A stretch of 38,515 bases of DNA from an uncultured Geobacteraceae bacterium (GTDB lineage Bacteria; Desulfobacterota; Desulfuromonadia; Geobacterales; Pseudopelobacteraceae), in assembly GCA_903930585.1 (NCBI GenBank), contig CAIYZD010000431.1:1-38515 (forward strand), read 5' to 3'. Numbering within the stretch: the first letter of the stretch is position 1; each line of letters begins with the position of its first letter. The notes under the pieces were generated by a model. That model did no database searches, was not told the DNA's origin, and was given only the letters and a program-made list of their open reading frames with translations. The position numbers and the translations under genes are program-made. Below are positions 901 through 37,610 of this stretch, one piece after another.

Positions 901-1066
901 TGGTATGATCCTCTTTAGACTTTTGTTGCTGCCATTGAATTTAGAAGTTTAGGCTAAATTTCCACTTTCAAGGGCTGACCCCGCCTCTTTTGCTCACACC
1001 AACCGCATCCTGATTACGAAAATAATGGCGCTACAATCACCATAATTTACTAAACTATTTACAAAA

Positions 1067-1196
1067 AATAATCAATTGTAATATCAGTATGTTATCAGCA
1101 TTAAAAGTGTAAAGTTTCTTTACGACTTCAGAAAACATCAATAATATCAAAGTTTTACATTGTATCAAAAATGGCTCAACATCGTCAAATGGCGGA
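1067..1196 (-). promoter_or_regulatory. Repeated regulatory element, copy A (candidate peptidase promoter/operator)
   Basis: Positions 1067-1144 match 17686-17764 at roughly 68 of 79 positions with one single-base gap. The block AAATGGCGGA at 1187-1196 recurs at 17807-17816 at exactly the same distance (42 bases between blocks). Inside is the palindrome GTAAAG-TTT-CTTTAC (1109-1123) and ATCA repeats near one helical turn apart (1071, 1083 and 1094). Read on the minus strand the palindrome is followed by TTTACA, a 16-base gap and CATACT, a plausible -35/-10 pair pointing to the M28 peptidase about 170 bases away. The promoter reading is inference; the repeat itself is seen directly. Confidence 0.55.
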
Positions 1197-1290
1197 ATGG
1201 GCCAAAAAAACTTTTTCGCGCATAAAAATGGGCAGGAAAATTCTCTGCCCGCTTGGGGTGCGAGAAAACAGCTGAACATAAAAAGCTGCT

Positions 1291-1318
1291 GTGACAGACT
1301 GCAACTTTATGGTAAAAT
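1291..1318 (+). promoter_or_regulatory. Possible sigma70 promoter for hypE
   Basis: GTGACA (1291-1296) and TAAAAT (1313-1318) are separated by 16 bases and would start transcription about 20 bases before the hypE GTG. The -35 match is imperfect, so this is only a candidate. Confidence 0.35.
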
Positions 1319-1347
1319 GGAAAACTATTTTCAGGAGGCCATTGCAC

Positions 1348-2361
1348 GTGAATAACGATCTGATTCTTCTCGGCCACGGTAGCGGCGGCCGCCTTTCGCA
1401 CCAGCTGCTTGATGAACTGATCATTCCGATTGTCAGCGGCATTTCCCCGGCGGGACAAAACGATGCTGCCCTGCTGGAGAGCGTGCCGGGTCGGATTGCC
1501 TATACGACCGATTCTTTTGTCGTCGATCCGATATTTTTTCCCGGTGGAACCATCGGCAGCCTGGCCGTGCATGGCACGGTCAACGACCTGGCCATGATGG
1601 GGGCGCGGCCGCTCTGGTTGAGTGTCGGGTTGATCATCGAAGAGGGATTCAGTAAGGCCGATTTGAAGACCATCCTTGAGGATATGCGTGCGGCTGCGGA
1701 CGCGGCCGGTGTTGCCATCGTTACCGGTGATACCAAGGTGGTGCCGCGCGGCAAGGCTGACAAGATATTTATAACGACCTCCGGTGTCGGGGCGGTTGAG
1801 CATACCCTTCCAATTCATGGCGCCAATGCCCGGCCGGGTGATGTGATCATCATCAACGGCACCATCGGCGATCACGGCATTGCCGTCATGGCGGGACGTG
1901 AAGGGCTTGAAGTCGATACGGAGATACAGAGCGATTCGGCGGCGCTGAACGGTCTGGTCGCCGTGCTTCTGGCGGAGGTGGGGGGGGGAGTCCATGTGCT
2001 GCGCGACCCGACGCGGGGAGGAGTGGCGACTACCATCAAGGAAATAGCCCAACAATCGGGGGTTGCTATTACCTTGAAAGAAGAGGCGCTACCGGTTAAA
2101 GCGGCTGTGCGGGGGGTTTGCTCTATTCTCGGGCTTGACCCGCTCTTTGTGGCAAACGAGGGAAAACTGCTGGCCTTTGTGGCGGCTGATGCTGCGGACG
2201 GAGCGTTGGCGACCATGAGAAAACATCCGCTCGGCGGCAACGCTGCGATCATCGGCGCGGTGGGAGCCGGACCGGCCGGCCGGGTGCAGATGGAGACGGT
2301 GATCGGCGGGATGCGGTCGGTCGATATGCTCTCCGGAGAACAATTGCCGAGGATATGCTGA
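1348..2361 (+). CDS. hypE: HypE, carbamoyl dehydratase for [NiFe] hydrogenase maturation
   Basis: HypE dehydrates the thiocarboxamide that HypF places on its C-terminal cysteine to a thiocyanate, which becomes the CN ligands of the [NiFe] hydrogenase active-site iron. The protein opens with the family hallmark LILLGHGSGG, contains the ATP-binding AIR-synthase-like fold (for example TGDTKVV and RDPTRGG) and ends exactly in PRIC, with the essential carbamoyl-accepting cysteine last. An ATG at 1291 would add 19 residues unlike the family. The GTG at 1348 lies ten bases after AGGAGG (1333-1338) and gives 337 residues, the usual length. The stop is one base before the next gene, so hypE and ybaK are probably co-transcribed. 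The other hyp genes are not in this window, which is unusual for the family. Confidence 0.95.
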   Translation: MNNDLILLGHGSGGRLSHQLLDELIIPIVSGISPAGQNDAALLESVPGRIAYTTDSFVVDPIFFPGGTIGSLAVHGTVNDLAMMGARPLWLSVGLIIEEGFSKADLKTILEDMRAAADAAGVAIVTGDTKVVPRGKADKIFITTSGVGAVEHTLPIHGANARPGDVIIINGTIGDHGIAVMAGREGLEVDTEIQSDSAALNGLVAVLLAEVGGGVHVLRDPTRGGVATTIKEIAQQSGVAITLKEEALPVKAAVRGVCSILGLDPLFVANEGKLLAFVAADAADGALATMRKHPLGGNAAIIGAVGAGPAGRVQMETVIGGMRSVDMLSGEQLPRIC

Positions 2362-2362
2362 G

Positions 2363-2851
2363 ATGGCGAAGGAAAAATCACCGGTTACCGCTGCGGTACG
2401 TGTATTGCGTGCCGAAAAGGTCGAGTTCAGCGACCATCCCTATTCTTATGAAGAGAAGGGGGGGACGGAGGTGTCTTCGCGCGAGCTGGGTGTTGACGAG
2501 CATGCCGTGATTAAAACCCTGATCATGGAAGATGACCGCCGTAAACCGCTGATCGTGTTGATGCATGGCGATCTGCAGGTCTCCACCAAGGAACTGGCGC
2601 GGCTGATCGGCGTCAAACAGGTTTCTCCGTGCAGCGCGGACATGGCTCAAAAGCAGAGCGGTTTTCTGGTCGGAGGCACCTCGCCATTTGGCACCCGTCA
2701 TCTAATGCCGGTCTATATGGAAGAAAGCATCTCCGGCTTGCCGAAAATCTATATTAACGGCGGCAAACGGGGTTATCTGGTCGGCATGGCGCCGTCGGAA
2801 CTCATCAGGGTACTGAAGCCTCGCCTGGTAACAGTGGGGATAAAGAGATGA
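2363..2851 (+). CDS. ybaK: YbaK/EbsC-family Cys-tRNA(Pro) deacylase
   Basis: This 162-residue protein matches the YbaK family, which hydrolyses cysteine mischarged onto tRNA(Pro) and so acts as a trans-editing factor beside prolyl-tRNA synthetase in the cytoplasm. Recognisable features are the N-terminal segment EFSDHPYSY, the KTLIMEDD strand, STKELARLIG and the C-terminal block YINGGKRGYLVGM, which form the INS-like editing fold. It begins one base after hypE ends, consistent with translational coupling. Its last codons run into a heptanucleotide tandem repeat, and the first TGA in that repeat is its stop. Family placement is confident; precise tRNA specificity (YbaK or ProX type) cannot be settled by eye. 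Confidence 0.9.
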   Translation: MAKEKSPVTAAVRVLRAEKVEFSDHPYSYEEKGGTEVSSRELGVDEHAVIKTLIMEDDRRKPLIVLMHGDLQVSTKELARLIGVKQVSPCSADMAQKQSGFLVGGTSPFGTRHLMPVYMEESISGLPKIYINGGKRGYLVGMAPSELIRVLKPRLVTVGIKR

Positions 2852-2875
2852 GAGATGAGAGATGAGAGATGAGAG
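2844..2875 (+). repeat. Heptanucleotide tandem repeat (AGAGATG)n
   Basis: Four perfect tandem copies of AGAGATG run from 2844 to 2871, followed by a partial AGAG. The first copy spans the end of ybaK and supplies its TGA stop at 2849-2851. Such a tract can change length by replication slippage. Because seven is not a multiple of three, but the stop lies in the first copy, length changes would mainly alter the spacer before the next gene. Confidence 0.9.
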
Positions 2876-2902
2876 GGTCGGTATTTATGAAAGGAATCGA
2901 GT

Positions 2903-3352
2903 ATGATCAGAAAAGCACAGATTGTCGATGTAAAGGATATCCAGAAGTTACTGATGACATTTGCCAGCCGGGGCGACATGTTGTCCCGTTCGCTGTCGGA
3001 GCTGTATGAGTCGTTGCGGGATTTTTACGTCGTTGAAGAAGATGGGGTTCTGTTGGGGGTATCGGCGTTGCACATCGTGTGGGAGGATCTTGCCGAGGTG
3101 CGCTCCGTGGCGGTGAACGAAGATGCTGGTCGCAAGGGGATTGGCAGCCGTCTGGTGCAGGCCTGTATCGACGAAGCCCGCGAAATAGGCCTGAAACGGA
3201 TATTCTGCCTGACCTACAAACCGGACTTTTTTGCCAAGCATGGTTTTCGTCTGGTGGATAAAGCCGAGTTGCCGCATAAGGTATGGGGAGATTGCATTAA
3301 ATGCCCGAAATTTCCCGATTGCGACGAAAATGCGATGATACTGGACCTGTGA
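2903..3352 (+). CDS. GNAT N-acetyltransferase, short ArgA-like
   Basis: The 149-residue protein is a single GNAT domain that would transfer acetyl from acetyl-CoA to an amine. The acetyl-CoA pyrophosphate loop is RKGIGS (77-82), preceded by the strand AEVRSVAVNE. The N-terminus (IRKAQIVDVKDIQKLL) and the overall pattern resemble short stand-alone N-acetylglutamate synthases used for arginine biosynthesis in bacteria lacking classical ArgA or bifunctional ArgJ. A C-terminal cysteine cluster (Cys131, Cys134, Cys140) is typical of that subgroup. AAAGGA lies just upstream of the ATG. It follows ybaK by about 50 bases on the same strand and ends at a strong hairpin. N-acetylglutamate synthase is the favoured but unproven role. 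Confidence 0.8.
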   Translation: MIRKAQIVDVKDIQKLLMTFASRGDMLSRSLSELYESLRDFYVVEEDGVLLGVSALHIVWEDLAEVRSVAVNEDAGRKGIGSRLVQACIDEAREIGLKRIFCLTYKPDFFAKHGFRLVDKAELPHKVWGDCIKCPKFPDCDENAMILDL

Positions 3353-3388
3353 AATGCGAAAGGGGGGCAATAGCCCCCCTTTCGCATT
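3353..3388. terminator. Bidirectional hairpin terminator
   Basis: A perfect 16-bp stem (3353-3368 with 3373-3388) with a four-base loop AATA lies between the converging GNAT gene and the Rrf2 regulator gene. The stem contains a run of six G-C pairs. The flanking U-tracts are short, but position and strength support use in both directions. Confidence 0.85.
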
Positions 3389-3424
3389 ATGTGGAGTGTC
3401 GGTCTGTTCAGTCAGATCCCGTTA

Positions 3425-3901
3425 TCAGATATAGTACATGACACGGTGATTGGTCTCGTTTTCAATACCCATGTCGTGGGCACGCTGACAGAGGGTTTGC
3501 AGGGTCATACCGCCGAACAGGGTATCAAGCAGCTCGTTGGCCTCTGCCCAGACGGTCTGAGTGACGCATTTCCCTTCGAAAGGGCATTCCGTCTTGCGGC
3601 GGAGTTTTTTCGGCGTGGCGCCGACACAATCAACCAGCAGTATATCCTGCTCGGTGGCATTCAGAATTTCGAGAACCGAAATTTCTTCCGGTTTGCGCGC
3701 CAGTGCATACCCCCCTTGTGGTCCGCGCTTGCTATTGAGGAGACCGGCACGTTTCAGGCTCTGAAAGATCTGTTCGAGATAGCGGGGGGAAATCTGCTGA
3801 CGGCGGGAGATGTCCTGGATCTGGGCAGGCTCGGGGCCGCAGTTGTAGGCAATGTCGAACATGGCACGCAAGCCGTATCTGCTTTTCGTTGAGAGGCGCA
3901 T
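3425..3901 (-). CDS. Rrf2-family transcriptional regulator with candidate Fe-S cysteines
   Basis: This 158-residue protein begins MRLSTKSRYGLRAMFDIA, the typical start of Rrf2 regulators, with a winged helix covering about residues 1-85 (recognition region ISPRYLEQIFQSLKRAGLL). The family includes IscR, NsrR and CymR, which sense iron-sulfur status, nitric oxide or cysteine. Three cysteines (Cys92, Cys106, Cys112) fall in the cluster-binding loop, but the first gap is 13 residues rather than the five of IscR and NsrR. An upstream ATG at 3964 would add 21 residues unlike the family, so the ATG at 3901 is preferred. It is not next to isc or cys genes here, so its regulon cannot be guessed. Family is firm; the ligand is open. 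Confidence 0.88.
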   Translation of the reverse strand: MRLSTKSRYGLRAMFDIAYNCGPEPAQIQDISRRQQISPRYLEQIFQSLKRAGLLNSKRGPQGGYALARKPEEISVLEILNATEQDILLVDCVGATPKKLRRKTECPFEGKCVTQTVWAEANELLDTLFGGMTLQTLCQRAHDMGIENETNHRVMYYI

Positions 3902-4004
3902 ACATGGTACTCCGGATCTGATGAAATGCTGAAAATCATTACGGAAGTGGGTGAAGGTTGTCAAGGAAATAAACTGCCGGGCAGCGTCATTCCAAAAATG
4001 TGTG

Positions 4005-4727
4005 TTATCGTGCCGTGCGGGCGATCATTGCCGCAACTACGGTCTCAGCCCCGGCTTTTTTCAGCTCTTTGGCACATTCATCCATGGTACTTCCCGTGGT
4101 CATGACATCATCCAGCAGCAGAATCCGTTTACCGGCCACCCGGTCGGGCCTGGTGACGGCAAAGGCTCCATTTACATTCATCCGGCGTTCCTGCGCCGAG
4201 AGGTTGATCTGTGGTTCGGTCGACCTGGTTCTGACAAGAGTATCCGGCAACAGGGGAAGTGCAAGCCGGCGTGACAGCACCGCTCCGAGGAGCACCGCCT
4301 GGTTAAAGCCGCGCTGACGCAGACGGGAGCGATGGAGCGGTACCGGAACAATCAGGTGCGGATCGCCGCCATTGTCTATTCCTTCCAGAGCGAGGAGCGC
4401 CAGCGGAAAGCGCAGGTGGGTGAGCCGATTGTATTTGAACGCGTGAATCAGGTCGCGAACCGCCCCTTCGTAGAGAAAGGGCGCCCGTGCTCTGTCGAAG
4501 TGCGGCGGGTGGGTCAGACACGCGCCGCAGCGGTGATCGTTACCCACACCGATAAAGGGTATTCCGCAGATGGGGCAGAGCGGTGACGCCACAAGTGGCA
4601 GGCGTTCCCGGCAGTCCGGGCAGATATGCAGCTCGTCTGAATTCGGGATAAAAGAGCGGCAGATGTGACAGATGGGGGGAAGGACAACGTCAAGCAGCGC
4701 CGTGAAGAACTGCTTGACGGAAGCCAT
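4005..4727 (-). CDS. comF: ComF-family phosphoribosyltransferase-like protein
   Basis: The 240-residue protein has the ComF layout: an N-terminal region with four CxxC or CxC-type knuckles (Cys20/23, 36/39, 51/54, 67/70) forming a double zinc ribbon, then a type I phosphoribosyltransferase domain ending in the PRPP-binding signature LLLDDVMTTGST (about 203-214). ComF proteins act in the cytoplasm during natural transformation, helping imported single-stranded DNA through or after the inner membrane, although the biochemical reaction is unsettled. It is the next gene upstream of the Rrf2 regulator on the same strand, separated by about 100 bases. The conserved domain order and length make the assignment firm, while competence in this organism is not shown. 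Confidence 0.92.
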   Translation of the reverse strand: MASVKQFFTALLDVVLPPICHICRSFIPNSDELHICPDCRERLPLVASPLCPICGIPFIGVGNDHRCGACLTHPPHFDRARAPFLYEGAVRDLIHAFKYNRLTHLRFPLALLALEGIDNGGDPHLIVPVPLHRSRLRQRGFNQAVLLGAVLSRRLALPLLPDTLVRTRSTEPQINLSAQERRMNVNGAFAVTRPDRVAGKRILLLDDVMTTGSTMDECAKELKKAGAETVVAAMIARTAR

Positions 4728-4814
4728 TTAAAAGCCGGGGCCGGAGATGACGACCAGCACATGGAGATCAGAAAAGTACGGTTGGCGATCATCTCCCGTC
4801 ATTTTCATGGGCGC

Positions 4815-5387
4815 CTACTTCACAATTTTGACGGACTTGATAACGACCGGCGTTTCGGGAACGTTCTGGAACACCATGTTCACGTTATGTGTTTTTACCG
4901 ACACGATCCGGTCAACCACATCCATCCCTTCCAGAACCTTGCCGAAGACCGCGTACCCGGCACCATCCGGGCTCGGGCGGTTGAGCATGTCGTTGTTCAC
5001 GACATTGATGAAGAACTGTGCGGTAGCGCTGTCCGGGGCAGATGTTCTGGCCATGGCAAGGGTGCCGCGATCATTTTTCAGGCCGTTGGCGGCCTCATTC
5101 TTGATAGGTGCGTTGGTCGGTTTCTGCTTGCGATCAGTGGTAAAACCGCCGCCTTGTGCCATGAAGCCGGGGATGACGCGGTGAAAGATGGTGCCGCTAT
5201 AAAAACCTCCTTTGACATAATCCAGAAAATTTTTGACGCTGATGGGCGCTTCTTTCTCGAATAGTTCGATCTTGACGTTTCCGAGGCTTGTTTCCATCGT
5301 GACAACCGGGTTTTTCTTTCCTTCTGCACAGGCGATTCCTGCCAGGAGACAGATCAGTGCAACAGCGCTCAACATCTTCTTTATCAT
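4815..5387 (-). CDS. ppiA: Exported cyclophilin-type peptidyl-prolyl isomerase
   Basis: This cyclophilin-fold proline isomerase is about 190 residues and starts with a Sec signal peptide (MIKKMLSAVALICLLAG, probable cleavage near residue 21), so it likely works in the periplasm on folding proteins. The core motifs FHRVIPGFMAQGG and a later AMARTSAPDSATAQFFINV block are the catalytic and substrate-binding strands of PpiA/PpiB. The ATG at 5387 sits just after TTTGGAGGG, whereas the ATG four codons earlier has no ribosome-binding site. The cysteine near the cleavage site does not form a proper lipobox because Gly is at -3, so a soluble protein is favoured. It lies between hemH and comF on the same strand. 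Confidence 0.93.
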   Translation of the reverse strand: MIKKMLSAVALICLLAGIACAEGKKNPVVTMETSLGNVKIELFEKEAPISVKNFLDYVKGGFYSGTIFHRVIPGFMAQGGGFTTDRKQKPTNAPIKNEAANGLKNDRGTLAMARTSAPDSATAQFFINVVNNDMLNRPSPDGAGYAVFGKVLEGMDVVDRIVSVKTHNVNMVFQNVPETPVVIKSVKIVK

Positions 5388-5417
5388 GGTACCCTCCAAA
5401 GTTTTTTCTCGTTAAAA

Positions 5418-5448
5418 CGAGCGTACTATATATATGTCAGGACGCTCG
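5418..5448 (-). terminator. Possible hemH terminator
   Basis: A seven-base stem CGAGCGT (5418-5424) with ACGCTCG (5442-5448) encloses a 17-base loop and is followed on the minus strand by TTTT. It lies between hemH and the cyclophilin gene. The long loop makes it only moderately convincing. Confidence 0.4.
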
Positions 5449-5453
5449 AAAAA

Positions 5454-6406
5454 TCAAGACGCGCCATGCCGTACGAGTTCGGCCAGACAGGAGATGAAAG
5501 CGGGGGAGCTGTTGAGCGCTTCGGTGCGCCGGAAATCGGTGATGCCGAGTACGGCGGCTTCTTCCTTGTATTGGATATCGATTTCATAGAGTGTCTCGAT
5601 ATGATCCGACACAAACGAGATCGGCACCATCAGCAGCTGTTTGCAGCCGGCTGCGGCCAGTTCGGCGATCTTTGTCTCGGTTGACGGCTCCAGCCACTTG
5701 ACCGGTCCGGCTCGCGACTGGAAAGCCAGGTGATGCGAAATTCCGCCGAACTGTTCCATGGTCAGGCGTACCGTCGCCTGAATATGGTCAAGATAGGGGT
5801 CGCCGGAATCTATGAATGATTGTGGCAGGCCGTGGGCAGAGAAGAGCAGCTGGACCGTTGAACGGTCGGGAAAACCGGCCAGACCCCGCTCGATTTTTTC
5901 TGCCAGTGCGCCAATATAGGCGGGGTGATCATAGAATTGACGGATATATGAAAGCTTGAGGGGCGCTGCCGATTTTTTCGTTCCCCGCTCCAGTTCATTG
6001 ATGCTGGAGCCGACCGTGGCGCGGGAGTAGTGCGGATAGAGCGAAAGGACGGTAACGGTGGTGATGCCTTCACGCGCAATGGCGGCCAGCGCCTCGGCCG
6101 TATCCGGGTGCGAATAGCGCATGGCCACAAAGCAGCGGTAACCGGTCCCGAGGGCCTTTCAAGCTCTGCTGCCTGCTGTTCGGTCAACTGCCGGATCGGT
6201 GACTTGCCGCCGATCTTCTTATAATACTCCAGGACTTTTTTCGAACGGCGGCGCGCAATGACGCGGGCGATGACCGGTTGCAGTAAAGAAGGGCCGATAC
6301 GGATGATATCCCGGTCGGAGAAAAGGTTATACAGAAACGGCTCGATGGCGGCCAACGAGTCGGGCCCTCCCATCTGGAGCAGCAGTACGGCGGTTTTTGT
6401 TGTCAT
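5454..6406 (-). pseudogene. hemH: Ferrochelatase HemH, interrupted by a one-base frameshift
   Basis: Ferrochelatase inserts ferrous iron into protoporphyrin IX in the last step of classical heme synthesis. Two overlapping reverse-strand frames together make one complete protein of about 317 residues, the normal length. The first (from ATG 6406) reads [18 protein letters not shown] through [12 protein letters not shown], then goes out of frame. The other resumes as [23 protein letters not shown] and carries [15 protein letters not shown] and [14 protein letters not shown], with the catalytic His and Glu. Restoring one G (minus strand) in the G/C run near 6151-6157 rejoins them exactly. Everything else is intact, so this is either a very recent mutation or a sequencing or assembly error. 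The start is three bases beyond the cupin gene stop. Confidence 0.85.
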
Positions 6407-6409
6407 ATC

Positions 6410-6727
6410 TCAGGCCCTTATCATGACGAGCAGCATCTTGAACGGCTTCACCGCTTTCAGCTCATGGGGAATGTTGGCCGGCATAATGATAATCTGACCG
6501 GCAGCTACGATGTGCGGAGCCCCGTTAATAATGACCTCAGCTTCGCCATCCACCACCTGAACAAAGGCATCATACGGTACGGTATGTTCGCTCAAACCCT
6601 GCCCCTCGCCAAACGAAAACATCGTCACGGTCCCGATTTTCTTGTCGATCAGCGTCTTGCTGACAACCGAGCCGTCCTGATAGGAAACGAGATCACTCAG
6701 TGTTAATGCATTACCAATTAATTCCAT
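6410..6727 (-). CDS. Small single-domain cupin protein
   Basis: A 105-residue protein with one conserved beta-barrel (cupin_2 type). The region GQGLSEHTVPYDAFVQVVDGEAEV is the first cupin motif, with a metal-ligand His, and AGQIIIMPANIPHEL is the second, also with a His. Such stand-alone cupins bind a metal or small molecule and serve as sensors or enzymes of varied function, so none is assigned. A longer frame to 6763 exists, but the ATG at 6727 is preceded by a clean AGGAGG and begins at the conserved region. It precedes hemH with a three-base gap and is likely in the same transcript, but a link to heme is not established. Confidence 0.82.
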   Translation of the reverse strand: MELIGNALTLSDLVSYQDGSVVSKTLIDKKIGTVTMFSFGEGQGLSEHTVPYDAFVQVVDGEAEVIINGAPHIVAAGQIIIMPANIPHELKAVKPFKMLLVMIRA

Positions 6728-6795
6728 AAATCCTCCTGATTCTCCTGCACACTCAAACTGCACTTATTCATAGTACCGCAGGAGTCAAAAAAAAC

Positions 6796-6825
6796 AAAGG
6801 CGGAAAACCAAAGTTTTCCGCCTTT
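6796..6825 (-). terminator. groESL intrinsic terminator
   Basis: A 13-bp perfect stem (6796-6808 with 6813-6825), loop CAAA, is followed on the minus strand by a G and a long T-run (complement of 6787-6794). It lies immediately downstream of groEL and is a textbook rho-independent terminator. Confidence 0.92.
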
Positions 6826-6854
6826 ATTAACATTACCAGGTTCAGATGCAGCGA

Positions 6855-8829
<1,975 letters not shown>

Positions 8830-8877
8830 TTGTACTTCTCCTTTCTATCCTTGTGTGGTGTGGTGGTAGAGTTGGAA

Positions 8878-8904
8878 TTAGCACTCAGGGTCACTGAGTG
8901 CTAA
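8878..8904 (-). promoter_or_regulatory. CIRCE operator (HrcA binding site)
   Basis: TTAGCACTC, nine bases, GAGTGCTAA: a perfect match to the CIRCE inverted repeat bound by the heat-shock repressor HrcA. It sits between the promoter and groES. hrcA itself is outside the window. Confidence 0.98.
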
Positions 8905-8914
8905 TTACTCACGG

Positions 8915-8943
8915 AATATAAACAGCGCCTTTGCAAAAATCAA
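8915..8943 (-). promoter_or_regulatory. Sigma70-type promoter of groESL
   Basis: On the minus strand TTGATT (-35, 8938-8943) and TATATT (-10, 8915-8920) are separated by exactly 17 bases, placing the start of transcription at or just before CIRCE. HrcA binding there would block initiation or early elongation. Confidence 0.8.
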
Positions 8944-9003
8944 GGGGGTATCTGAAATAATTTTGGAGGGGAACATCTCCCGTCGACAGAAACACTAATT
9001 GTA

Positions 9004-10326: not shown

Positions 10327-10506
10327 GGTGGTACTCCTGATAACATGGATTAATCCTGAAGGATCAGTCGGGAGGAAGATACCCCATTTCATGCGACGAC
10401 GCAACGCTGTAAACTTTTCTGTAGCGTCGCATTATTTAATGGTTGCTCCGGAGGGCAAGATACGAAAGAATGTACAAACTTGGTATATACACGGAAAGGC
10501 TTGTTT

Positions 10507-11301
10507 ATGAAAAGATGTAGTGTCGCACTTTCAATGGGTATCATCTTGATGGTATCCCACGTTTTTGCCGAGTCAACGCCCTCAACGATTGAGAGTCTTG
10601 AACGGCAGATTTCGGCCCGCTATGCCGGTGTGTCTCCGGCAGAGTGGGGCGAACGGGTGTCGGGGGTGCGGACCAGGCTTGACACCGACGAAAAAGTGCT
10701 CGCGCTGACGCTTGATGCCTGTGGCAGTGCCAGGGGGAAGGGGGTTGATTCCCGGCTGATGGAGTTTTTGATTCGGGAGCAGATGCCGGCAACGTTTTTC
10801 ATCAATGGGCGCTGGATTGATGCCAACCCGGAGCTGTTCAAACAGCTGGCCGCCAATCCGCTGTTTGAGATTGCCAACCACGGTATTCGCCACAAGCCTG
10901 CCTCAATTACCGGGCGGTCGATATACGGAATTACCGGGACGAAAAATGCAGCTGAAGTCGTTGAGGAGATCGAACTGAATGCCCGCAAAATCGAAGCGAT
11001 CAGCGGGGTACGGCCGAAGCTGTATCGTTCGGGAACCGCCTATTACGACGAGGTTGCGGTGAAGATATCGCAGGCGCTCGGGCACGAGGTTGCCGGTTAT
11101 TCTCTGTTGGGAGATGCCGGGGCGACCTGGAAAGCTGCACAGGTGAAGGCGGCACTCTTGAAAGCAACTCCCGGCGATATCGTCCTGCTGCATATGAATC
11201 ACCCCGAAGCAGGGACAGGGGAAGGGATCATCGCGGCGGTGCCGGAACTGAAAAAACGCGGGTTCCGGTTTGTCAGGATGTCGGATTATCCGTTGAAATA
11301 A
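10507..11301 (+). CDS. Exported NodB-domain polysaccharide deacetylase, atypical first motif
   Basis: The 264-residue protein starts with a signal peptide (MKRCSVALSMGIILMVSHVFA) and then a NodB-fold domain, so it probably deacetylates a cell-envelope or extracellular polysaccharide. Motif 1, normally TFDD, is TLDACG (Asp70 kept, the second Asp replaced by Ala71). Motif 2 is NHGIRHKP (His125 and His129, metal ligands), motif 3 is RSGTAYYDE in place of RPPY, and motif 4 is DIVLLHMNHP. The metal-binding Asp normally supplied by position 71 is absent, so activity or metal use may differ. The ATG at 10507 follows GGAAAGG; the ATG nine codons earlier has no such site. Family is clear; substrate is not. 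Confidence 0.85.
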   Translation: MKRCSVALSMGIILMVSHVFAESTPSTIESLERQISARYAGVSPAEWGERVSGVRTRLDTDEKVLALTLDACGSARGKGVDSRLMEFLIREQMPATFFINGRWIDANPELFKQLAANPLFEIANHGIRHKPASITGRSIYGITGTKNAAEVVEEIELNARKIEAISGVRPKLYRSGTAYYDEVAVKISQALGHEVAGYSLLGDAGATWKAAQVKAALLKATPGDIVLLHMNHPEAGTGEGIIAAVPELKKRGFRFVRMSDYPLK

Positions 11302-11328
11302 CGAGCGAATCGCGGAGACGTTCTCCCC

Positions 11329-12768
11329 TTATATGTTGTATTCCAACTTTAACCGCATCTGGATGTTTCTGGCCTGCTTAAAGGCCTCTTTCAGCATCAG
11401 GCGGTTAAGTGCATTCAGGGATGCGGGATCCAGGCGATTGGCTGCGTCCCGGTTTACAGCTGTGATCTGTTGTTGCATGCGGAAACGCTGCACCAGATAG
11501 AATGCCTCCACTTCGCCCGCGGTTGTTTCCGGGCGCTGATTCCGGGCGCGGGCCACTGCACGCAGACGATCCGCGGTGTTGGTTGCCCAAACCCCATGGG
11601 TCAGACTCCAGAGGCGTATTGCATCTACGAATGGACGGGAGCCACGGAGTTTGAGGTTAATGGTATGGGGGTGCTGCTTGCCCCCGTCGTAGACAAAGTT
11701 ATTGGCCCACCCCAGGGGTGGTGAGGCGGTCAGGGCCTCTTCTGCCAGGGCTCTCAAGAAGCGTTCGTGTGTTCGAGGCTGAGGGAGTAACCAGTTGCGC
11801 AGAGTGTCGGCCAGCTCATAGCTGCCGTAGAGGGGGCGAAAGTCAAAGAAGATGGTGCTATGCATGATCGCCTCCGGCTCGGGCACTTTCATCCAGCTGC
11901 TGAATTTGTTTTGCCACTCCGCCAGGCTCAGGCACCAGGACCGATTTCCGGCCATATAATTGCCTTTGCACAGGGTAAAGCCGCAGGCATCGAGCGCACG
12001 GTTGACCGCCTGGGCAAAGGGTAAAAAGGCTTCGCGCAGCTCCTCTGTTGCCTCCTCTACGCCGGGGTGGAAGATGATCGCATTATCCTGATCGGTTGAA
12101 AAGGTTTGTTCCAGCCGTCCTTCGGAGCCAAATACCAACCAGCACCATGGCACCGCCGGCAGATCAAATTCATCCTCGATCACCTCGATGATCCGCATCG
12201 CGGTTATATCATTGAGTGCCGAAACCCATTGACAAACTTTCTCCGCCCCCATTCCGGCCACAAACAGCTCTGTCCCACGCTGGTTGATTGCAGCGGCCAC
12301 TTTGGCCAGCGTCGCCACATCCGTTGCCATGGTGACCGATTCGGCCAGGGCCTCGGAGTCTCTGCCACGCAGTCCGAACAGGTCGGCACGGGAGACCACA
12401 TTGCACAGGTGGCCGTCCGGTTCCACCAGGATCACATGCCTGACATTCCGTTTTGTCATCAACACCGTGGCCCGGTGGGCGGGCGCATCGGCGGGCAGAG
12501 TAAAGGGCGCCGCGGTCATCAACACGGCCACCGGCAGTTCCAGATCCCCCCCCTCAAAGGCGATGGCATGCACCAGATCACTCAGAGTGATAATGCCGAG
12601 CGGGCGGTTACTCGGTTCATCAACCACAACAATATTGTCGGTCCCGGTCTGGTTCATTCGCACCATGGCATCTCGCACACTGGTCGAGGGAGGCGTCGTC
12701 AGTGGTACTCCTCTTCTGGGAAGGGAACGCAGTGGCCCCTCCGATAGGCCAAAGTAGGTATCCGTCAT
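11329..12768 (-). CDS. CBS-pair and DUF294 nucleotidyltransferase-like protein
   Basis: Residues 20-140 form a CBS pair (NIVVVDEPSNRPLGIITLSDL and RHVILVEPDGHLCNVVSRADL), which usually binds adenine nucleotides. Residues 150-340 hold a GlnD-like nucleotidyltransferase domain with the signature GSEGR (214-218) and TDQDNA (225-230), including the metal-binding Asp pair. The C-terminal part is the helical partner seen in the DUF294 family. Relatives often lie beside acetate or sodium/solute symporter genes, as here, and are thought to modulate them, but no target has been shown. The ATG at 12768 follows GGTGG; a TTG at 12774 that overlaps the preceding stop is an alternative. It is the last gene of a run with the response regulator and symporter-kinase. 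Confidence 0.85.
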   Translation of the reverse strand: MTDTYFGLSEGPLRSLPRRGVPLTTPPSTSVRDAMVRMNQTGTDNIVVVDEPSNRPLGIITLSDLVHAIAFEGGDLELPVAVLMTAAPFTLPADAPAHRATVLMTKRNVRHVILVEPDGHLCNVVSRADLFGLRGRDSEALAESVTMATDVATLAKVAAAINQRGTELFVAGMGAEKVCQWVSALNDITAMRIIEVIEDEFDLPAVPWCWLVFGSEGRLEQTFSTDQDNAIIFHPGVEEATEELREAFLPFAQAVNRALDACGFTLCKGNYMAGNRSWCLSLAEWQNKFSSWMKVPEPEAIMHSTIFFDFRPLYGSYELADTLRNWLLPQPRTHERFLRALAEEALTASPPLGWANNFVYDGGKQHPHTINLKLRGSRPFVDAIRLWSLTHGVWATNTADRLRAVARARNQRPETTAGEVEAFYLVQRFRMQQQITAVNRDAANRLDPASLNALNRLMLKEAFKQARNIQMRLKLEYNI

Positions 12769-12770
12769 GA

Positions 12771-13145
12771 TCAACCACCGGTTTCCAGCAGTTCTTTGAC
12801 CTTGGCGACCAATTCACGGGTTGAAAAAGGCTTGGGAATATAGGCATCCGCGCCAAGAGAGAGACCCTTCGCTATTTCTGCCGTCCGACCCTTGGCGGTC
12901 AGCATCAGGATCCGCACCCCTGCCAGAGCAGGGTCAGTCCGTACCGCCCTGCATACCTCAAAGCCATCGAGCTTGGGCATCATGACATCAAGGACCACAA
13001 GATCGGGTCGATCGGCCCGAATTCGCGCCAGCCCCTCCTCTCCATCATGCGCCGTCAGGACTTCCAACCCCTCGCGGCTCATGAGGAAGTTGACGGAAAT
13101 GGCGATATTCGGTTCATCATCCACAATGAGGACTGTTTTGCTCAT
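12771..13145 (-). CDS. Stand-alone CheY-like response regulator
   Basis: The 124-residue protein is a single receiver domain with no output domain. It has the acidic pair (Asp9, Asp10), the phosphoacceptor Asp53 in VVLDVMMP, and the conserved Lys in IPKPFS near residue 104. It would be phosphorylated by the symporter-kinase encoded just upstream, with which it shares an ATGA stop-start overlap (13142-13145). It ends at the start of the CBS/nucleotidyltransferase gene. Signalling therefore must go by protein contact, possibly to that neighbour, which is inference. Family assignment is firm. Confidence 0.95.
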   Translation of the reverse strand: MSKTVLIVDDEPNIAISVNFLMSREGLEVLTAHDGEEGLARIRADRPDLVVLDVMMPKLDGFEVCRAVRTDPALAGVRILMLTAKGRTAEIAKGLSLGADAYIPKPFSTRELVAKVKELLETGG

Positions 13146-15889
13146 GGTCCCTCCTCCAGGTTGTCCGTTGAGATCGTTTGGTTTATACAGGGTAGCTCAA
13201 ATACAAAAATTGCACCATGTCCTGGTGGGCTCTGCACCGAGATCCGTCCGCTAAAGTGCTCAATGATCTCCCGGCTGATCGGAAGACCCAATCCCGTGCC
13301 CATGGGGTTGGCGCTTTTATCGCCGGCCTGACGGAATTTCTCGAAAATAACCGCCTGTGCCGCCGGTGGAATACCTGGTCCATTATCGGCAATCCTGACC
13401 CGATACCGGTTCTGCTTTCTCGTGAGGGACACATCGATCCTGCCGCTGCCCGGTGGAATGAATTTTTCAGCGTTGGATAACAGGTTGAGCATGACCTGCA
13501 TCAGACGGTCACGATCTGCCATGACAGAGGAGGCCCCTTTCCGTAATTTCAGGTAAACTACGCCCCCCTTGTCAAGAAGCAGCTGTTCTGTTGTTGCAAC
13601 CGATTGTCTGATCACTTCAGCAAGATCAACCTCACTGCTTTTCCAGTCAGCATGGCCGGACTCTATCTTTGCCAGATCAAGGACCTGGTTAACAAGGCGA
13701 GTCAGTCGCTCGGTTTCCCTGGCAATGATGCCGAGGAAGTTCATTCGCTCCTGCACTTTGATGTCCGGATTATCAAGGAGAATCTCTGAAAAAGCGCGAA
13801 TGGAGGTCAAGGGGGTTCGCAGTTCATGGGTCACCGAAGACATGAAATCATCCTTCAGGTGATCCAGGGCCTTAAGCCCTTCGTTCGCGGCTTTAAGCTC
13901 AGCCGTTGCGATCTCCAATTCCCGGGATTTCTGCTCCAATTCGTGGCTATAGGCGCGAATCTGTGATGCTTCATCAAGGATATGCATCACTTCATCGAGC
14001 CCAAGGGGCTCTTCCTGGGCCACGGAGGCAACCATAACCCGTGCGGAAGCACTTCCGATGGCTCCGGCAAGCAGGGTCTCGGCAAAAAGGACGGTCTGCG
14101 CATCGGCAGGCAGATCCTCTCCGGCAGCCAACCTGCGACCTTTGGTATACGTGGCGAATTCGTTATGGGCACGTTCGGGGCCGAGAAACCGGCTGGTCAG
14201 GTCGATCAGATCGTCAAATTGGGCACTGCCTCGCCATACCCCGGCAACAATCGGCCGGCTATGTTTCAGCACATCGACAAATACCGTGGCCTGAGTAACC
14301 TCTGCGGTGTTGGGGACCCGCAACAGGGAGACGATAGCATAGGCTCCTATATTGGCCGCCAGGCTCCAAAACAGACAATGGGAAATCTCGTCGAACCCTT
14401 GTAGCCCAAAGAGTTCCTGTGGCTTTAAGAGGGCGATGCCGAATGGTCCGGAATCAAGAAACTCGGCGGACACCCATCCGGATTTCGCAAAGGAAGGGAG
14501 TAACAGTGTGTAGATCCAGATTGCAAAACCGGAGCCAAGGCCCGCCAGCGCACCCCTGCGGGTTCCTCCACGCCAAAACAGACCGCCAATTATTACCGGC
14601 GCGAATTGCGCCACGGCGGCAAAACTGATCAGGCCTATGGCCACCAACGCATAGGCTTCTCCTGCCAACCGGAAATAGAGATACCCCAGTAACAGAATGA
14701 AAAAAATCGAGCTGCGGCGCACAAACAACAACATGGAGGAAAGACTGACTGGCGGTGGGTGGTGCCGCCAACGGTGCAGCAGTACCGGCATCACCAAGTC
14801 GTTACAAACCATGGTGGAGAGGGCGATGGTCTCGACGATGACCATGCCGGTTGCGGCAGAAAGGCCACCGATAAAGGCGAACAGGGCCAGCCACTCCTGC
14901 TTGTAGGCAATGGGGAGGGTCAGGACAAAGGTATCGGCGTCGACGCTGCCACCGGGAAATGCCAACTGTCCGGCCAAGGCAATGGGCAGGACAAATACAT
15001 TGATCAGCAGCATGTAGAGCGGGAACATCCAGATGGCACGGCGTAAATGCTGTTCATTACTGTTTTCCACGACCGACAGCTGGAACTGGCGTGGCAACAT
15101 CAGCACTGCCAGCGCCGAAAGGAAGGAGAGCGAGACCCATGCGTTATAGCTCCCCTCCGGTGCGAGCAGCGGTTTCAGGTGATTCGCCTGCTCTGCCTTC
15201 CGGACGATATCGCCAAAACCGTTATGAAGGCCGAAGGTTACGAACAGTCCCACGGCTGTCAATGCCACCAGTTTGACGATGGACTCGAAGGCAATTGCCG
15301 CCACCAGACCTTCATGCCGCTCGCTGGCATCCAGGTGCCGTGTACCAAAAAAAATAGTGAAGAGTGCTAACAACAGCGCGACATAAAAGGCCGTATCCTG
15401 CCATACGGGCAGGGCGGCGTGGCGAGGCATGACAATTTCCGGATAGTGCAGCAGGATGGTAAAGCTGTTGGATACCGCCTTAAGTTGCAGGGCGATGTAA
15501 GGGAGTACCCCGACTACGGCGATCACCGTGACCAGTCCCCCCAGTAAGTGGCTCTTACCGTAGCGGGATGAAATAAAGTCGGCAATCGAGGTGATGCGTT
15601 GCGATTTGCTGACCCGTATCATTTTGAGCAACAGGTAGCCCCATAAGGCTGCGGCTAACGTTGGCCCCAGATAGATCGGCAGAAATCCAATCCCGGATGC
15701 GGCAGCACGTCCCACGCTGCCGTAATAGGTCCACGCCGTACAGAAAACGGCAAGCGACAGGGCGTAAACGGTGGGGTGGGAAATCACTGAGCGGCCACTG
15801 TCTGCGCGTCGATCTGCCCAGTAGGCAATAGCAAAGAGCAGCCCCATGTAGAGGCACGAGACGAAAATGATGAACGGGCCGCTCAGCAT
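13142..15889 (-). CDS. Sodium/solute symporter-histidine kinase fusion (CbrA-like)
   Basis: This 915-residue inner-membrane protein begins with about 500 residues of an SLC5-type sodium:solute symporter, with many hydrophobic helices and SVISHPTVYALSLAVFCTAWTY (written here as its central helix, SLAVFCTAWTYYGSVG). A linker resembling the STAC domain (about 520-640), a coiled coil and a HisKA-HATPase core follow: the phosphoacceptor His688 in VTHELRTPL, the N box NLLSNAEKF, DNGPGIP and GTGLGL. Transport and kinase domains are joined as in Pseudomonas CbrA, so it probably senses or imports a carboxylate or amino acid and signals to the receiver encoded next. A start at 16057 would overlap the small upstream gene and look non-native, so the ATG at 15889 is used. 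The substrate is unknown. Confidence 0.92.
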   Translation of the reverse strand: MLSGPFIIFVSCLYMGLLFAIAYWADRRADSGRSVISHPTVYALSLAVFCTAWTYYGSVGRAAASGIGFLPIYLGPTLAAALWGYLLLKMIRVSKSQRITSIADFISSRYGKSHLLGGLVTVIAVVGVLPYIALQLKAVSNSFTILLHYPEIVMPRHAALPVWQDTAFYVALLLALFTIFFGTRHLDASERHEGLVAAIAFESIVKLVALTAVGLFVTFGLHNGFGDIVRKAEQANHLKPLLAPEGSYNAWVSLSFLSALAVLMLPRQFQLSVVENSNEQHLRRAIWMFPLYMLLINVFVLPIALAGQLAFPGGSVDADTFVLTLPIAYKQEWLALFAFIGGLSAATGMVIVETIALSTMVCNDLVMPVLLHRWRHHPPPVSLSSMLLFVRRSSIFFILLLGYLYFRLAGEAYALVAIGLISFAAVAQFAPVIIGGLFWRGGTRRGALAGLGSGFAIWIYTLLLPSFAKSGWVSAEFLDSGPFGIALLKPQELFGLQGFDEISHCLFWSLAANIGAYAIVSLLRVPNTAEVTQATVFVDVLKHSRPIVAGVWRGSAQFDDLIDLTSRFLGPERAHNEFATYTKGRRLAAGEDLPADAQTVLFAETLLAGAIGSASARVMVASVAQEEPLGLDEVMHILDEASQIRAYSHELEQKSRELEIATAELKAANEGLKALDHLKDDFMSSVTHELRTPLTSIRAFSEILLDNPDIKVQERMNFLGIIARETERLTRLVNQVLDLAKIESGHADWKSSEVDLAEVIRQSVATTEQLLLDKGGVVYLKLRKGASSVMADRDRLMQVMLNLLSNAEKFIPPGSGRIDVSLTRKQNRYRVRIADNGPGIPPAAQAVIFEKFRQAGDKSANPMGTGLGLPISREIIEHFSGRISVQSPPGHGAIFVFELPCINQTISTDNLEEGP

Positions 15890-15905
15890 GTCCTGCTCCG
15901 GCGGT

Positions 15906-16106
15906 TCAATTGCCCCGTCCTTCGGTGACCCAGGCCATGAGCGTAACCAAAATACTCCAGACGGTGAACAGATAAAAATAGAGTATCGGCACACCGAACC
16001 AGAGGCGATCGTTGTCAAACAGAGAGATAATAGGAGAATAGAGGAGTAGCACGCCAAAGAGAAAGACGGCGACCAACCGCTGTTTTATAAAGGTAATTCG
16101 TCTCAT
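15906..16106 (-). CDS. Small two-helix membrane protein accompanying the symporter
   Basis: The 66-residue product has two hydrophobic segments (about residues 10-30 and 38-58: VAVFLFGVLLLYSPIISLF and WFGVPILYFYLFTVWSILVT). Small membrane proteins of this form are commonly encoded directly before sodium/solute symporters, comparable in position to the DUF4212 or YjcH partners of acetate permeases. It ends 17 bases before the symporter-kinase start. Its ATG has GGGAGG just upstream, which supports translation. A role as symporter subunit is inferred from position; no domain name can be given with certainty. Confidence 0.75.
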   Translation of the reverse strand: MRRITFIKQRLVAVFLFGVLLLYSPIISLFDNDRLWFGVPILYFYLFTVWSILVTLMAWVTEGRGN

Positions 16107-16152
16107 TTACCCTTCCCTCCCTATTATTGATCTGCGCGCCACCCTCAATCAG

Positions 16153-17637
16153 CTAGAGTGAGTCAAGGCCGTACTGGATGTCTTCTATGAGCAGCTTGGT
16201 GCCGGTGCTGGTGTTCCTGTTTCCGTACAATTGCGTGAGAAACGGTAACAGGTCGGATTTTTGCAGAGAACCAAAATAGTAGAGCAAATCCCCGGCCAGC
16301 GCGATATTGTATGCCTGCTGCCCGTAGTTCGATACCTGTTGGTAATTGGTTACATAGTTTTTTATGTTGGCGCCGTTGTACGACCCTACATTGAATGCCG
16401 CGAGATAATATGCGCCGGTAAAATCAAGAACGGCGCCGCTGCCTGACATGGCTTGCAGCAGCGATTGCGCGCCCGCGCTATATCCTGCTCCTGTCGTCGA
16501 CTGCAGGTGGGACATCGCAAAGGAGACGGAGTAATAGTCCAGCGCCCCGTTCATGGCGGTCTGCAGTTGGTTCATCTTCTGGAAACGCCCCGCCCAGGCG
16601 AGGGAGTCGGAGTTCGCGGGGCAGACCACGCCGTAGGGTACTGGGCTGGCATTAACCCGGCAGTCAATCCAGGTCTGGGCATGAAAACAGGGGGTCAATG
16701 CGTTTGTCAGGTCATCCGGTGACAGAAAATCCTGACGCGCCAGGGCAGCATCACAGGCTTGTCCAAGCAGGGTAAGAGGGTTTGCGGTGACACCGTCAAC
16801 CTGAACCGATGTCGCATGTGCATTCAGGTAGACATAATCTCTGGCCAGGAATTGGTCGGTAGTGGTTGCGGCGGAGGTGCTGATCATGACAGCCGGAAGC
16901 GGAACGGTCATGGCCGTCACCAGAGGAGCGGAGGCGGTTCCGACAGAATAGAGGTTGGCGCCGTTACTCGTGAAAAGGTCTTGCGCGGTTGGGCCGCGGT
17001 GTATCAGTCCGACGATCTGGCCGTTGTCATCAATTGCCGGCGAACCACTGTTTCCCGGCAGACTGTAGTTTGTACTCTTGATCCAGCTGCCGGCTGTGTC
17101 GAAGATTACGCCGTCACTCCATTTTTTGAGGCGTCCGTCGGGGTGCCCTATGATGGTCACGTGCGTTCCGATGAGAGCTGCGGGGGGCTGCGCGTTAAAG
17201 GAGAGGTAGTCCGGTGTGGTGAGTTTGTTGCCGCCGGGGTTGTCGTACATTTGAACTACCGCCATGTCGAGTCCCACGTCGACGGATTGCGGTACCGCAA
17301 AGACGATCGTCGGCTGCTGGCGTTGTTGTCCGCGCTGCCGCAGAAACGTTATCTGCACATAGCACCCTTCGCGCGGGCATACCGTATCACCCAAAACGTG
17401 ATTGTTGGTAAGAAAGAGTCCGGTAGCGGAAATGAAGGACCCGGAAGCCGCGGCGCCTGCGGTGCGAACAAGGACCACTGCCTTGGCGGCTTTTTGAACG
17501 ACGGTGGACGCTGTCGCAATGTCATTAAGCGCCGGCAGATCCGTACCGGCGTTTGATGCGGAGCCGTCGCTTCCGCCACCGCCGCAGCCGGCAAGAAACA
17601 TCAGAACCAGTGGCGTCATAACCTGCAGAATTTTCAT
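16153..17637 (-). CDS. Lipoprotein with trypsin-like serine protease domain
   Basis: The 494-residue protein begins with a lipoprotein signal peptide (MKILQVMTPLVLMFLAGC, lipidation at Cys18) and a Gly/Ser-rich tether. A chymotrypsin/DegP-type protease domain follows: the His80 of TNNHV, Asp124 of VGLDMAV and Ser197 of LPGNSGSP form the catalytic triad. No PDZ domain is seen. The second half (about 270-494), with many aromatic and Asn residues, matches nothing I recognise. It is likely an envelope-anchored protease. The ATG at 17637 follows a GGGGG run. Its upstream region carries the second copy of the repeated promoter-like element. The following small membrane gene starts 46 bases after its stop, so read-through into the symporter-kinase genes is possible. 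Confidence 0.88.
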   Translation of the reverse strand: MKILQVMTPLVLMFLAGCGGGGSDGSASNAGTDLPALNDIATASTVVQKAAKAVVLVRTAGAAASGSFISATGLFLTNNHVLGDTVCPREGCYVQITFLRQRGQQRQQPTIVFAVPQSVDVGLDMAVVQMYDNPGGNKLTTPDYLSFNAQPPAALIGTHVTIIGHPDGRLKKWSDGVIFDTAGSWIKSTNYSLPGNSGSPAIDDNGQIVGLIHRGPTAQDLFTSNGANLYSVGTASAPLVTAMTVPLPAVMISTSAATTTDQFLARDYVYLNAHATSVQVDGVTANPLTLLGQACDAALARQDFLSPDDLTNALTPCFHAQTWIDCRVNASPVPYGVVCPANSDSLAWAGRFQKMNQLQTAMNGALDYYSVSFAMSHLQSTTGAGYSAGAQSLLQAMSGSGAVLDFTGAYYLAAFNVGSYNGANIKNYVTNYQQVSNYGQQAYNIALAGDLLYYFGSLQKSDLLPFLTQLYGNRNTSTGTKLLIEDIQYGLDSL

Positions 17638-17997
17638 AATACCCCCGGTGATCTGTCATCACTCTTGACTAAACCTTTTATCATCAATAATCAATAGCAA
17701 TATCAGTATGTTATCAGAAACAAAAAGTGTAAAGTTTCTTTACACCTCCAAAAAATATCAATAAAAACAGCATATTAGCAGAGACGAAACGCACCTTAAG
17801 TACGCTAAATGGCGGAGTTGCGTGGAAAAAAATGTATCGGGATACAAAAAAAGTTTGCGACTCTGTTTGATAGTTGTTAATCGCATCAGAGTGAAGAATA
17901 AAATTACACTGCTGCGAGGTTTGAAGATGCATTTGTTTTACAAATATGGTAATAAACAAATTTATACTTATTTTCTACACAATTAAGGAGCTTCAAA
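17638..17997. other. Divergent intergenic region between protease and CBS gene
   Basis: No convincing gene is present. It holds repeated element copy B (17686-17816), a small perfect stem TGTATC-GG-GATACA (17833-17846), and a hairpin ACTCTG/CAGAGT (about 17860-17891). An AT-rich stretch with possible promoter sequence and the AAGGAG site for the plus-strand CBS gene complete it. A short reverse frame at 17714-17959 overlaps the repeated element and is not believed. Confidence 0.6.
17686..17816 (-). promoter_or_regulatory. Repeated regulatory element, copy B (candidate protease promoter/operator)
   Basis: This copy matches 1067-1196: the 17-base block TATCAGTATGTTATCAG at 17701-17717, the palindrome GTAAAG-TTT-CTTTAC (17729-17743), TATCAATAA and, 42 bases later, AAATGGCGGA (17807-17816). 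Read on the minus strand, TTTACA and CATACT with a 17-base gap would start transcription about 50 bases before the protease ATG. Conservation of noncoding sequence in two places far apart suggests a bound protein or RNA rather than chance. The promoter reading is inference. Confidence 0.6.
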
Positions 17998-35753: not shown

Positions 35754-35771
35754 CTATACAATCTCCCTTTT

Positions 35772-35846
35772 TCCGGTAACCCGACTATCCCTTTACAGGA
35801 CTCGTGGCTTTGCGTCCCCGGGTTACCCCAAGTTTGCCTTTTACAA
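35772..35846 (-). ncRNA. GEMM-I class cyclic-dinucleotide riboswitch
   Basis: The minus-strand RNA contains the class hallmarks: GGCAAAC, a stem CUUGGG-GUAA-CCCGGG closed by a GNRA tetraloop, directly followed by GACGCAAAGCC, a second stem and a 3' GGGUUACC. These match the c-di-GMP-I (GEMM) riboswitch. Some Geobacter members of the class bind cGAMP instead; the diagnostic position appears to be G here, which would favour c-di-GMP, but I am not certain of the alignment. It precedes a terminator and the PAS-receiver gene, so ligand should control transcription of that gene and the kinase genes after it. Confidence 0.88.
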
Positions 35847-35860
35847 AGAGAGACAATGTT

Positions 35861-37556: not shown

Positions 37557-37610
37557 TATTGCCACACACATATGAAACGATACTGAAACAATTTAAAATA
37601 AGTTATGTTC

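Follow-up and report, generated by a model that had tools for sequence, protein, structure and literature searches.

Two copies of an intergenic element

The DNA analyzed here is a 38,515-nucleotide stretch from the genome of an uncultured Geobacteraceae bacterium (the source genome), and we refer to this whole stretch as the window. It contains two copies of a noncoding element centered on a palindrome, TGTAAAG-N3-CTTTACA, each located between a minus-strand peptidase gene and a divergent plus-strand gene. In all likelihood, the element serves as an activator site in a two-component regulon, probably one dependent on sigma-54. Other genomes, contigs, and loci are identified below by our own G, C, and L numbers. 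The features at the two copies are as follows.

1..900, minus strand: Peptidase_M28 gene, truncated by the contig end; next minus-strand gene at copy 1 (Pfam, 1.7e-31)
1027..1042, minus strand: degenerate GG-N10-GC (TGGTGATTGTAGCGCC), 82 bases from the palindrome start, score 9/17; weak sigma-54 candidate or terminator-like hairpin
1046..1144, minus strand: conserved module of palindrome 1 (blastn E 2.8e-19; profile match 1039-1169, E 2.1e-20, a profile training copy)
1050..1055, minus strand: GTTTAG of copy 1, its TTA exactly 16 bases after TTGATT in 15/15 aligned copies
1070..1075, minus strand: TTGATT of copy 1, invariant in 15/15 aligned copies
1108..1124, minus strand: core palindrome of copy 1, one mismatch to TGTAAAG-N3-CTTTACA; predicted NtrC-type activator dimer site
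1187..1196, minus strand: AAATGGCGGA block of copy 1, portion of a degenerate palindrome resembling CCGCCATTTGGCG
1291..2361, plus strand: divergent gene with an AIRS/AIRS_C domain match (hypE in the first-pass annotation)
16153..17637, minus strand: Trypsin_2 protease gene (4.6e-17), lipoprotein-like start by eye; next minus-strand gene at copy 2
17665..17764, minus strand: conserved module of palindrome 2 (blastn; profile match 17659-17789, E 4.1e-23, a profile training copy)
17669..17674, minus strand: GTTTAG of copy 2, its TTA exactly 16 bases after TTGATT in 15/15 aligned copies
17689..17694, minus strand: TTGATT of copy 2, invariant in 15/15 aligned copies
17728..17744, minus strand: core palindrome of copy 2, exact TGTAAAG-N3-CTTTACA
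17807..17816, minus strand: AAATGGCGGA block of copy 2, portion of a degenerate palindrome resembling CCGCCATTTGGCG
17998..18582, plus strand: divergent gene with a CBS-domain match

Alignment and blastn confirmed the layout described in the first-pass annotation. The blocks at 1067-1144 and 17686-17764 were alignable with a single gap, and with 1040-1220 as a blastn query against the window, 1046-1144 matched 17665-17764 with 82% identity over 100 bases (E 2.8e-19). Besides itself and copy 2, copy 1 had no window match better than E 2.3. Both copies share the same orientation and the ATCA repeats around the palindrome, and in both, a gap of 42 bases separates the 78- or 79-base block from a 10-base AAATGGCGGA block. 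The peptidase gene expected next on the minus strand was also verified at each copy by Pfam (Peptidase_M28 and Trypsin_2). We found a third long copy in the source genome (C637:20104-20307, 77% identity across 204 bases) and the exact palindrome at three further places in this genome (C804, C734, and C596). The copies on C637, C804, and C734 are close to contig ends, leaving some of their targets unreadable. In all four copies measured (both window copies, C637, and C186 of genome G051), the distance between the core palindrome and the degenerate palindrome containing AAATGGCGGA is exactly 73 bp. These observations uphold the earlier view that the element is repeated, most likely regulatory, and under an unnamed regulator, and that the AAATGGCGGA block keeps a constant distance.

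The palindrome is foldable and is followed by T residues, features that would also fit a structured RNA element. However, the covariation term was 0.04, any double change was seen in 1 of 10 pairs, and no Rfam match at gathering score was present at the element. An RNA element was rejected on this near absence of covariation, and we give it next to no credence.

Palindrome arrays and sigma-54-like promoters

A search of 141 genomes of the order found TGTAAAG-N3-CTTTACA without mismatch in 12 of them; the source genome has 5 such sites. Exact sites numbered 17 in G012, 10 in G109, 8 in G053, 6 in G037, 5 in G000, 4 in G106, 2 each in G104 and G051, and one each in G021, G011, G131, and G140, compared with none for a reversed-pattern control in all 141 genomes. 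When two mismatches were allowed, the source genome contained 22 sites versus 21 for the control, so that only exact or near-exact sites are meaningful. In the listed Geobacterales loci, 55 of 58 sites (exact sites plus window copy 1 with its one mismatch) were outside open reading frames (ORFs) of at least 150 amino acids. The exact 17-mer was not found in the literature searched, of which a small part was checked.

The palindromes were repeated as expected of a sigma-54 enhancer (upstream activating sequence) array, and each window copy has a single palindrome. Spacing within arrays was 57 bp in G012, G051, G104, G106, G011, and G021 and 67 to 69 bp in G053, G037, G109, and some arrays elsewhere, with doublets at 18 to 20 bp as well. 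A variant of the site (TGCARG...TTTACA, or reversed) was found near arrays only: 8 of 48 loci have it at a distance of no more than 200 bp, and the rest of the 371,671 bp has none. At one G012 locus (L060, 1841-2215), an entire array module is duplicated in tandem, 301 bp apart. We also observed GTGTAAAGAAACTTTACAC in seven viral contig stretches (L096-L102).

A sigma-54-like -24/-12 element was found 103 to 127 bp past the last palindrome in 6/6 arrays of G053, 5/5 arrays of G037, and 7/9 arrays of G109. With the better of two directions scored in arrays and controls alike, 24 of 50 arrays scored at least 13 and 17 scored at least 14, compared with 13.4% and 4.7% in the control draws. Every array scoring at least 14 belongs to one of these three genomes. 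One locus of the source genome itself, on C596, has a similar organization. Taking its palindrome as position 0, degenerate copies are at -69 and +69, the sigma-54-like element TGGTACGATCCCTGCT is at +182 (113 bp after the last palindrome copy), and an ATG at +235 opens a 302-amino-acid ORF without a Pfam match, whose start resembles an export signal by eye. Among the matches listed for Bacteroidota, a strict element was present at offsets of 68 to 74 or 89 to 94, in either direction, at 70 of 136 distinct exact sites, versus 2 of 1,286 control placements scored in one direction only. The occurrence of the palindrome with sigma-54 promoters in Bacteroidota may help in reading such regulons there. 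Many gut Bacteroidales among the matches listed (L103-L218) carry the palindrome with sigma-54-like promoters at two offsets that differ by about 21 bp.

A dispersed mobile repeat of the miniature inverted-repeat transposable element or repetitive extragenic palindromic type, without a regulatory role, was considered as an alternative. The long copies share 100 to 204 bp, the G012 modules are in tandem, and the three source-genome copies near contig ends are repeat-like. However, no terminal inverted repeats were found in 401 bases around either window copy, most sites fall outside ORFs as noted above, and spacing, as well as promoter distance in three relatives, is kept while flanks differ. 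The first-pass annotation had named a mobile element with target duplications as a finding that would overturn its reading. We rejected a mobile element on the missing inverted repeats and consider it improbable.

A candidate two-component activator

In G012, two exact palindromes are located about 150 bp upstream of a gene for a 508-amino-acid protein, P0001, with receiver, AAA+, and Fis-type helix-turn-helix domains. Homologues scoring at least 600 bits were detected in G012, G011, G024, G051, G104, G021, G015, G053, G037, G125, G131, G124, G000, and G106. Such a homologue is thus encoded in 10 of the 12 motif genomes versus 4 of the 129 others (Fisher p 1e-10), with the 600-bit line chosen after the ranking was seen (606.8, next 562.8) and with relatedness among the genomes causing p values to overstate independence. 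A profile built from 15 copies also matched the four regulator genomes that lack the exact motif (7 matches each in G015, G024, and G125 and 1 in G124) and had 3 matches in G104. At least 4 profile matches were found in 11 of 76 family genomes; the regulator was present in 9 of these 11 versus 3 of the 65 others (p 8e-8), and after removal of the six profile-training genomes, in 3 of 5 versus 3 of 65 (p 0.003). All intact aligned homologues have the Fis-type helix-turn-helix and a contact loop of GAFTGA or GAYTGA (GAYTHA in G106), as expected of a sigma-54 activator.

A homologue of the G011 sensor kinase adjoins the regulator in 13 of 15 loci examined (partially in G015). It was not beside the regulator in G000 or G051, and contig ends are near the gene in both. 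TonB-receptor and ABC_sub_bind genes are present at several regulator loci, and the loci often include the geopeptide radical-SAM gene TIGR04280. Since TIGR04280 was over cut-off in 101 of 141 genomes, its presence alone is not predictive. In 8 of 15 genomes (G011, G012, G021, G024, G053, G106, G109, and G124), the 3' end of a TIGR04280 gene is followed by an array at a distance of about 330 bp or less. This gene is part of the regulator locus in 7 of the 8, whereas in G012 it and the regulator are on different contigs. Our analysis of small ORFs by eye at the G011 locus revealed no convincing geopeptide precursor. Nor did a comparison among small ORFs that follow 19 promoters and have a ribosome site, in which the one match, between three G109 loci, was weak. 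The term geopeptide was not found in the literature searched. A non-exhaustive scan for GAFTGA-type activators at the loci detected them beside arrays just in G012 and WOR-3 genes and missed the AtoC-like protein of L262. In the WOR-3 locus L203 (1-1701), three exact palindromes directly follow a gene for a GAF-type enhancer-binding protein.

The recurrence of the palindrome, the array spacing, the sigma-54-like elements in three relatives and at one source-genome locus, and the co-occurrence with the regulator gene are all observed. On this basis, we think it likely that the palindrome is the binding site of a so-far-unnamed NtrC-family two-component response regulator, represented by P0001, that activates sigma-54 promoters. 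Dimers of this regulator would occupy between one and three palindromes, in most cases at a spacing of 57 or 67 to 69 bp, and would be phosphorylated, probably via the adjacently encoded histidine kinase. The phosphorylated dimers may then assemble and activate a sigma-54 promoter 103 to 127 bp further on, the direction of control being the one predicted from position. Such an assignment yields a testable site-regulator pair for an unnamed Geobacterales two-component activator, often encoded at the same locus as a geopeptide radical-SAM gene.

Besides the limits on the Fisher test given above, several observations weigh against this assignment. Two motif genomes fall below 600 bits, with no homologue in G140 and one of 532 bits in G109, the latter in the same gene setting. 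The profile had no match in G131 despite its regulator and 4 matches in G022 without one. The -12 part of the G109 promoters is TTGG or TTGA. The other 30 of the 50 arrays, from the source genome (window included), G012, G051, G104, G106, G131, G021, G011, and G020, were at control level, with 5/30 scoring at least 13 and 0/30 at least 14 versus the control draws given above, and the scan found no canonical -24/-12 element at either window copy. In the source genome, the regulator gene on contig C564 encodes residues 14 to 402 and then residues 396 to 508 in another frame, a frameshift around codons 396 to 402, and a second paralogue there covers residues 169 to 501, without a receiver domain and with a GAYTSA loop. 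No kinase homologue was found in the 20 kb of C564 examined, and no geopeptide enzyme was found in the source genome at E 1e-60. Possibly, a sequencing or binning error is behind the damaged regulator; the assembly has 93% completeness and 5% contamination. If real, a damaged regulator beside well-kept sites would be a case in which to study regulon loss or rewiring. The two damaged or shortened paralogues (L363, 864-1934 and 4974-6468) are 3 kb apart on C564, with a papain-family peptidase gene between them.

We also considered whether the palindrome is instead a PEP-CTERM box, the site of PrsR in the PrsK/PrsR system. The motif described by Haft in 2006 (PMC1569441) is a 17-nt site that ends in TTTACA, is sometimes repeated, is a mean of 62.8 nt upstream of a sigma-54 element, and has an NtrC-type predicted regulator, all of which resemble our arrays, and one gene near a G109 array has a PEP-CTERM domain. 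However, this is the single PEP-CTERM gene seen near an array, and the promoter distance is longer here. PrsR was over cut-off in 88 of 141 genomes, yet in 5 of 12 motif genomes versus 83 of 129 others (Fisher p 0.13, with the odds in the wrong direction). Neither PrsR nor PrsK (at E 1e-80) was found in the source genome with its 5 sites or in G012, the richest motif genome with 17 sites. On this genome distribution we rejected PrsR as the regulator, and we regard a PEP-CTERM box as very improbable. Because PrsR, the one other activator profiled, is distributed differently, the link between the motif and our candidate is not one to be expected of just any enhancer-binding protein.

Similar sites are known for other regulators of the enhancer-binding-protein type, including the TyrR box (TGTAAA-N6-TTTACA) and the GcsR site (TGTAACG-N4-CGTTCCG, in three tandem sites), as described in PMC4894688. 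These are palindromes with TGTAAA/TTTACA or similar arms. Unlike the TyrR box, the present site has N5 between these arms (17 bp rather than 18, as fixed by our search pattern) and so does not conform to it, and unlike both systems, sites here are mostly 57 to 69 bp apart and a receiver domain is part of the candidate. In Geobacter metallireducens, putative global regulator sites for which IHF/HU was suggested (PMC2700814) are likewise described as intergenic, multicopy, and mostly paired. The sigma-54 regulon of Geobacter sulfurreducens has a comparable -24/-12 consensus, TTGGCACGGTTTTTGCT (PMC2725144), but the portion of that account available to us contained no enhancer palindrome.

Genes beside arrays and the AT-rich variant in the window

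The palindrome is scattered in some Geobacter relatives and is not confined to the neighborhoods of protein-cutting enzymes. The first-pass annotation had proposed a peptidase regulon and a profile search of the genome and of Geobacterales with a list of downstream genes. In our searches, the element did recur, but its neighbors were mostly not peptidases. Just 3 of 30 genes beside arrays encode peptidases (M28, Trypsin_2, and S8), a count in which some genes are not the nearest ORF and the direction of control is predicted from position alone. M28 and Trypsin_2 are those of the window, and G053 contributes the S8 subtilase together with an Lcl/choice-of-anchor protein. An M48 peptidase gene in G011, second after a DUF898 gene, is additional to these three. 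A peptidase regulon was rejected as too narrow.

The remaining neighbors have mixed functions. RHS/FG-GAP proteins are encoded beside arrays in G053, G106, and G021, and three genomes from two genera (G104, G011, and G021; L242, L068, and L069) have an array followed by a gene for a DUF898 protein with a zinc ribbon. Array neighbors in G109 include CheX and TIR genes. A CheW gene adjoins an array in G021, as do genes for a Ser/Thr kinase protein and for the regulator in G012, and lipoprotein-like ORFs are also among the neighbors. The proteins encoded after 4030 of L233 and downstream of the palindrome in L081 (G051 C186), from two families of the order, have a similar start by eye (MLKEMKAYAHLKPGQ and MLTEMKSYCHLKPGQ).

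The window copies represent an AT-rich variant in which a single palindrome is combined with the AAATGGCGGA block. In an alignment of 15 copies from six genomes, TTGATT-N16-TTA was invariant in all copies beyond the palindrome, and conservation ended thereafter; a G104 copy, whose likely target is opposite to the strand first used, was excluded. The four copies with the 73-bp spacing do not have the second palindrome seen 57 bp away in other copies. GG-N10-GC is present about 81 to 82 bases from the palindrome start in copy 1, C637, and G051 C186, but not in copy 2, and in copy 1 this stretch can alternatively form a terminator-like hairpin. TTGATT is a possible IHF/HU bend site or a -35-like element. 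IHF-like TTGATW/WATCAA (an IHF consensus is given in PMC7962754) was found between array and promoter in just 3 of 19 sigma-54-type arrays and therefore marks the AT-rich variant.

The window copies may instead be sigma-70-type promoters, with TTTACA/CATACT, TTGATT-N16-TTA, or a pair further upstream as the promoter and the palindrome as an operator or upstream activator site. Consistent with this possibility are the invariance of TTGATT-N16-TTA and the missing canonical sigma-54 element. The -35/-10-like pair reported earlier, TTTACA-16/17-CATACT on the minus strand, does exist in both window copies, with just 9 of 12 positions matching. Between the far block and the palindrome on the minus strand of copy 1, we also found TTGACG-18-TACAAT and TTGATA-16-TATTAT, each matching at 10 of 12 positions with TG, and copy 1 had 4 sigma-70-like sites versus 1.4 (standard deviation 1.3) in shuffles. 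However, copy 2 had 2 such sites versus 1.7 (standard deviation 1.4) in shuffles and is thus at shuffle level, so the two 10/12 pairs are not common to both copies. Furthermore, the candidate regulator belongs to the sigma-54 type, and elsewhere sigma-54-like elements accompany the same palindrome. The proposal of a sigma-70 promoter overlapped by an operator gained no support where promoters are readable, as these are sigma-54-like with the palindrome as an enhancer 103 to 127 bp upstream, but the window copies have no readable sigma-54 element. Sigma-70-type promoters at the window copies are an unlikely but serious candidate.

Returning to an NtrC-family activator, the AT-rich variant in the window genus might represent its enhancer, relocated to a promoter that lacks -24/-12 elements and is based on the invariant TTGATT-N16-TTA core. 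The AAATGGCGGA palindrome would then stand in for the second enhancer site. We consider this relocation doubtful.

Elsewhere in the window, we observed a c-di-GMP-I-GGC (cyclic di-GMP) riboswitch on the minus strand at 35771-35847 (RF03167, 65.8 bits) and, on the same strand at 36210-37571, a gene for a HipA_C-domain protein that is a possible toxin-antitoxin partner.

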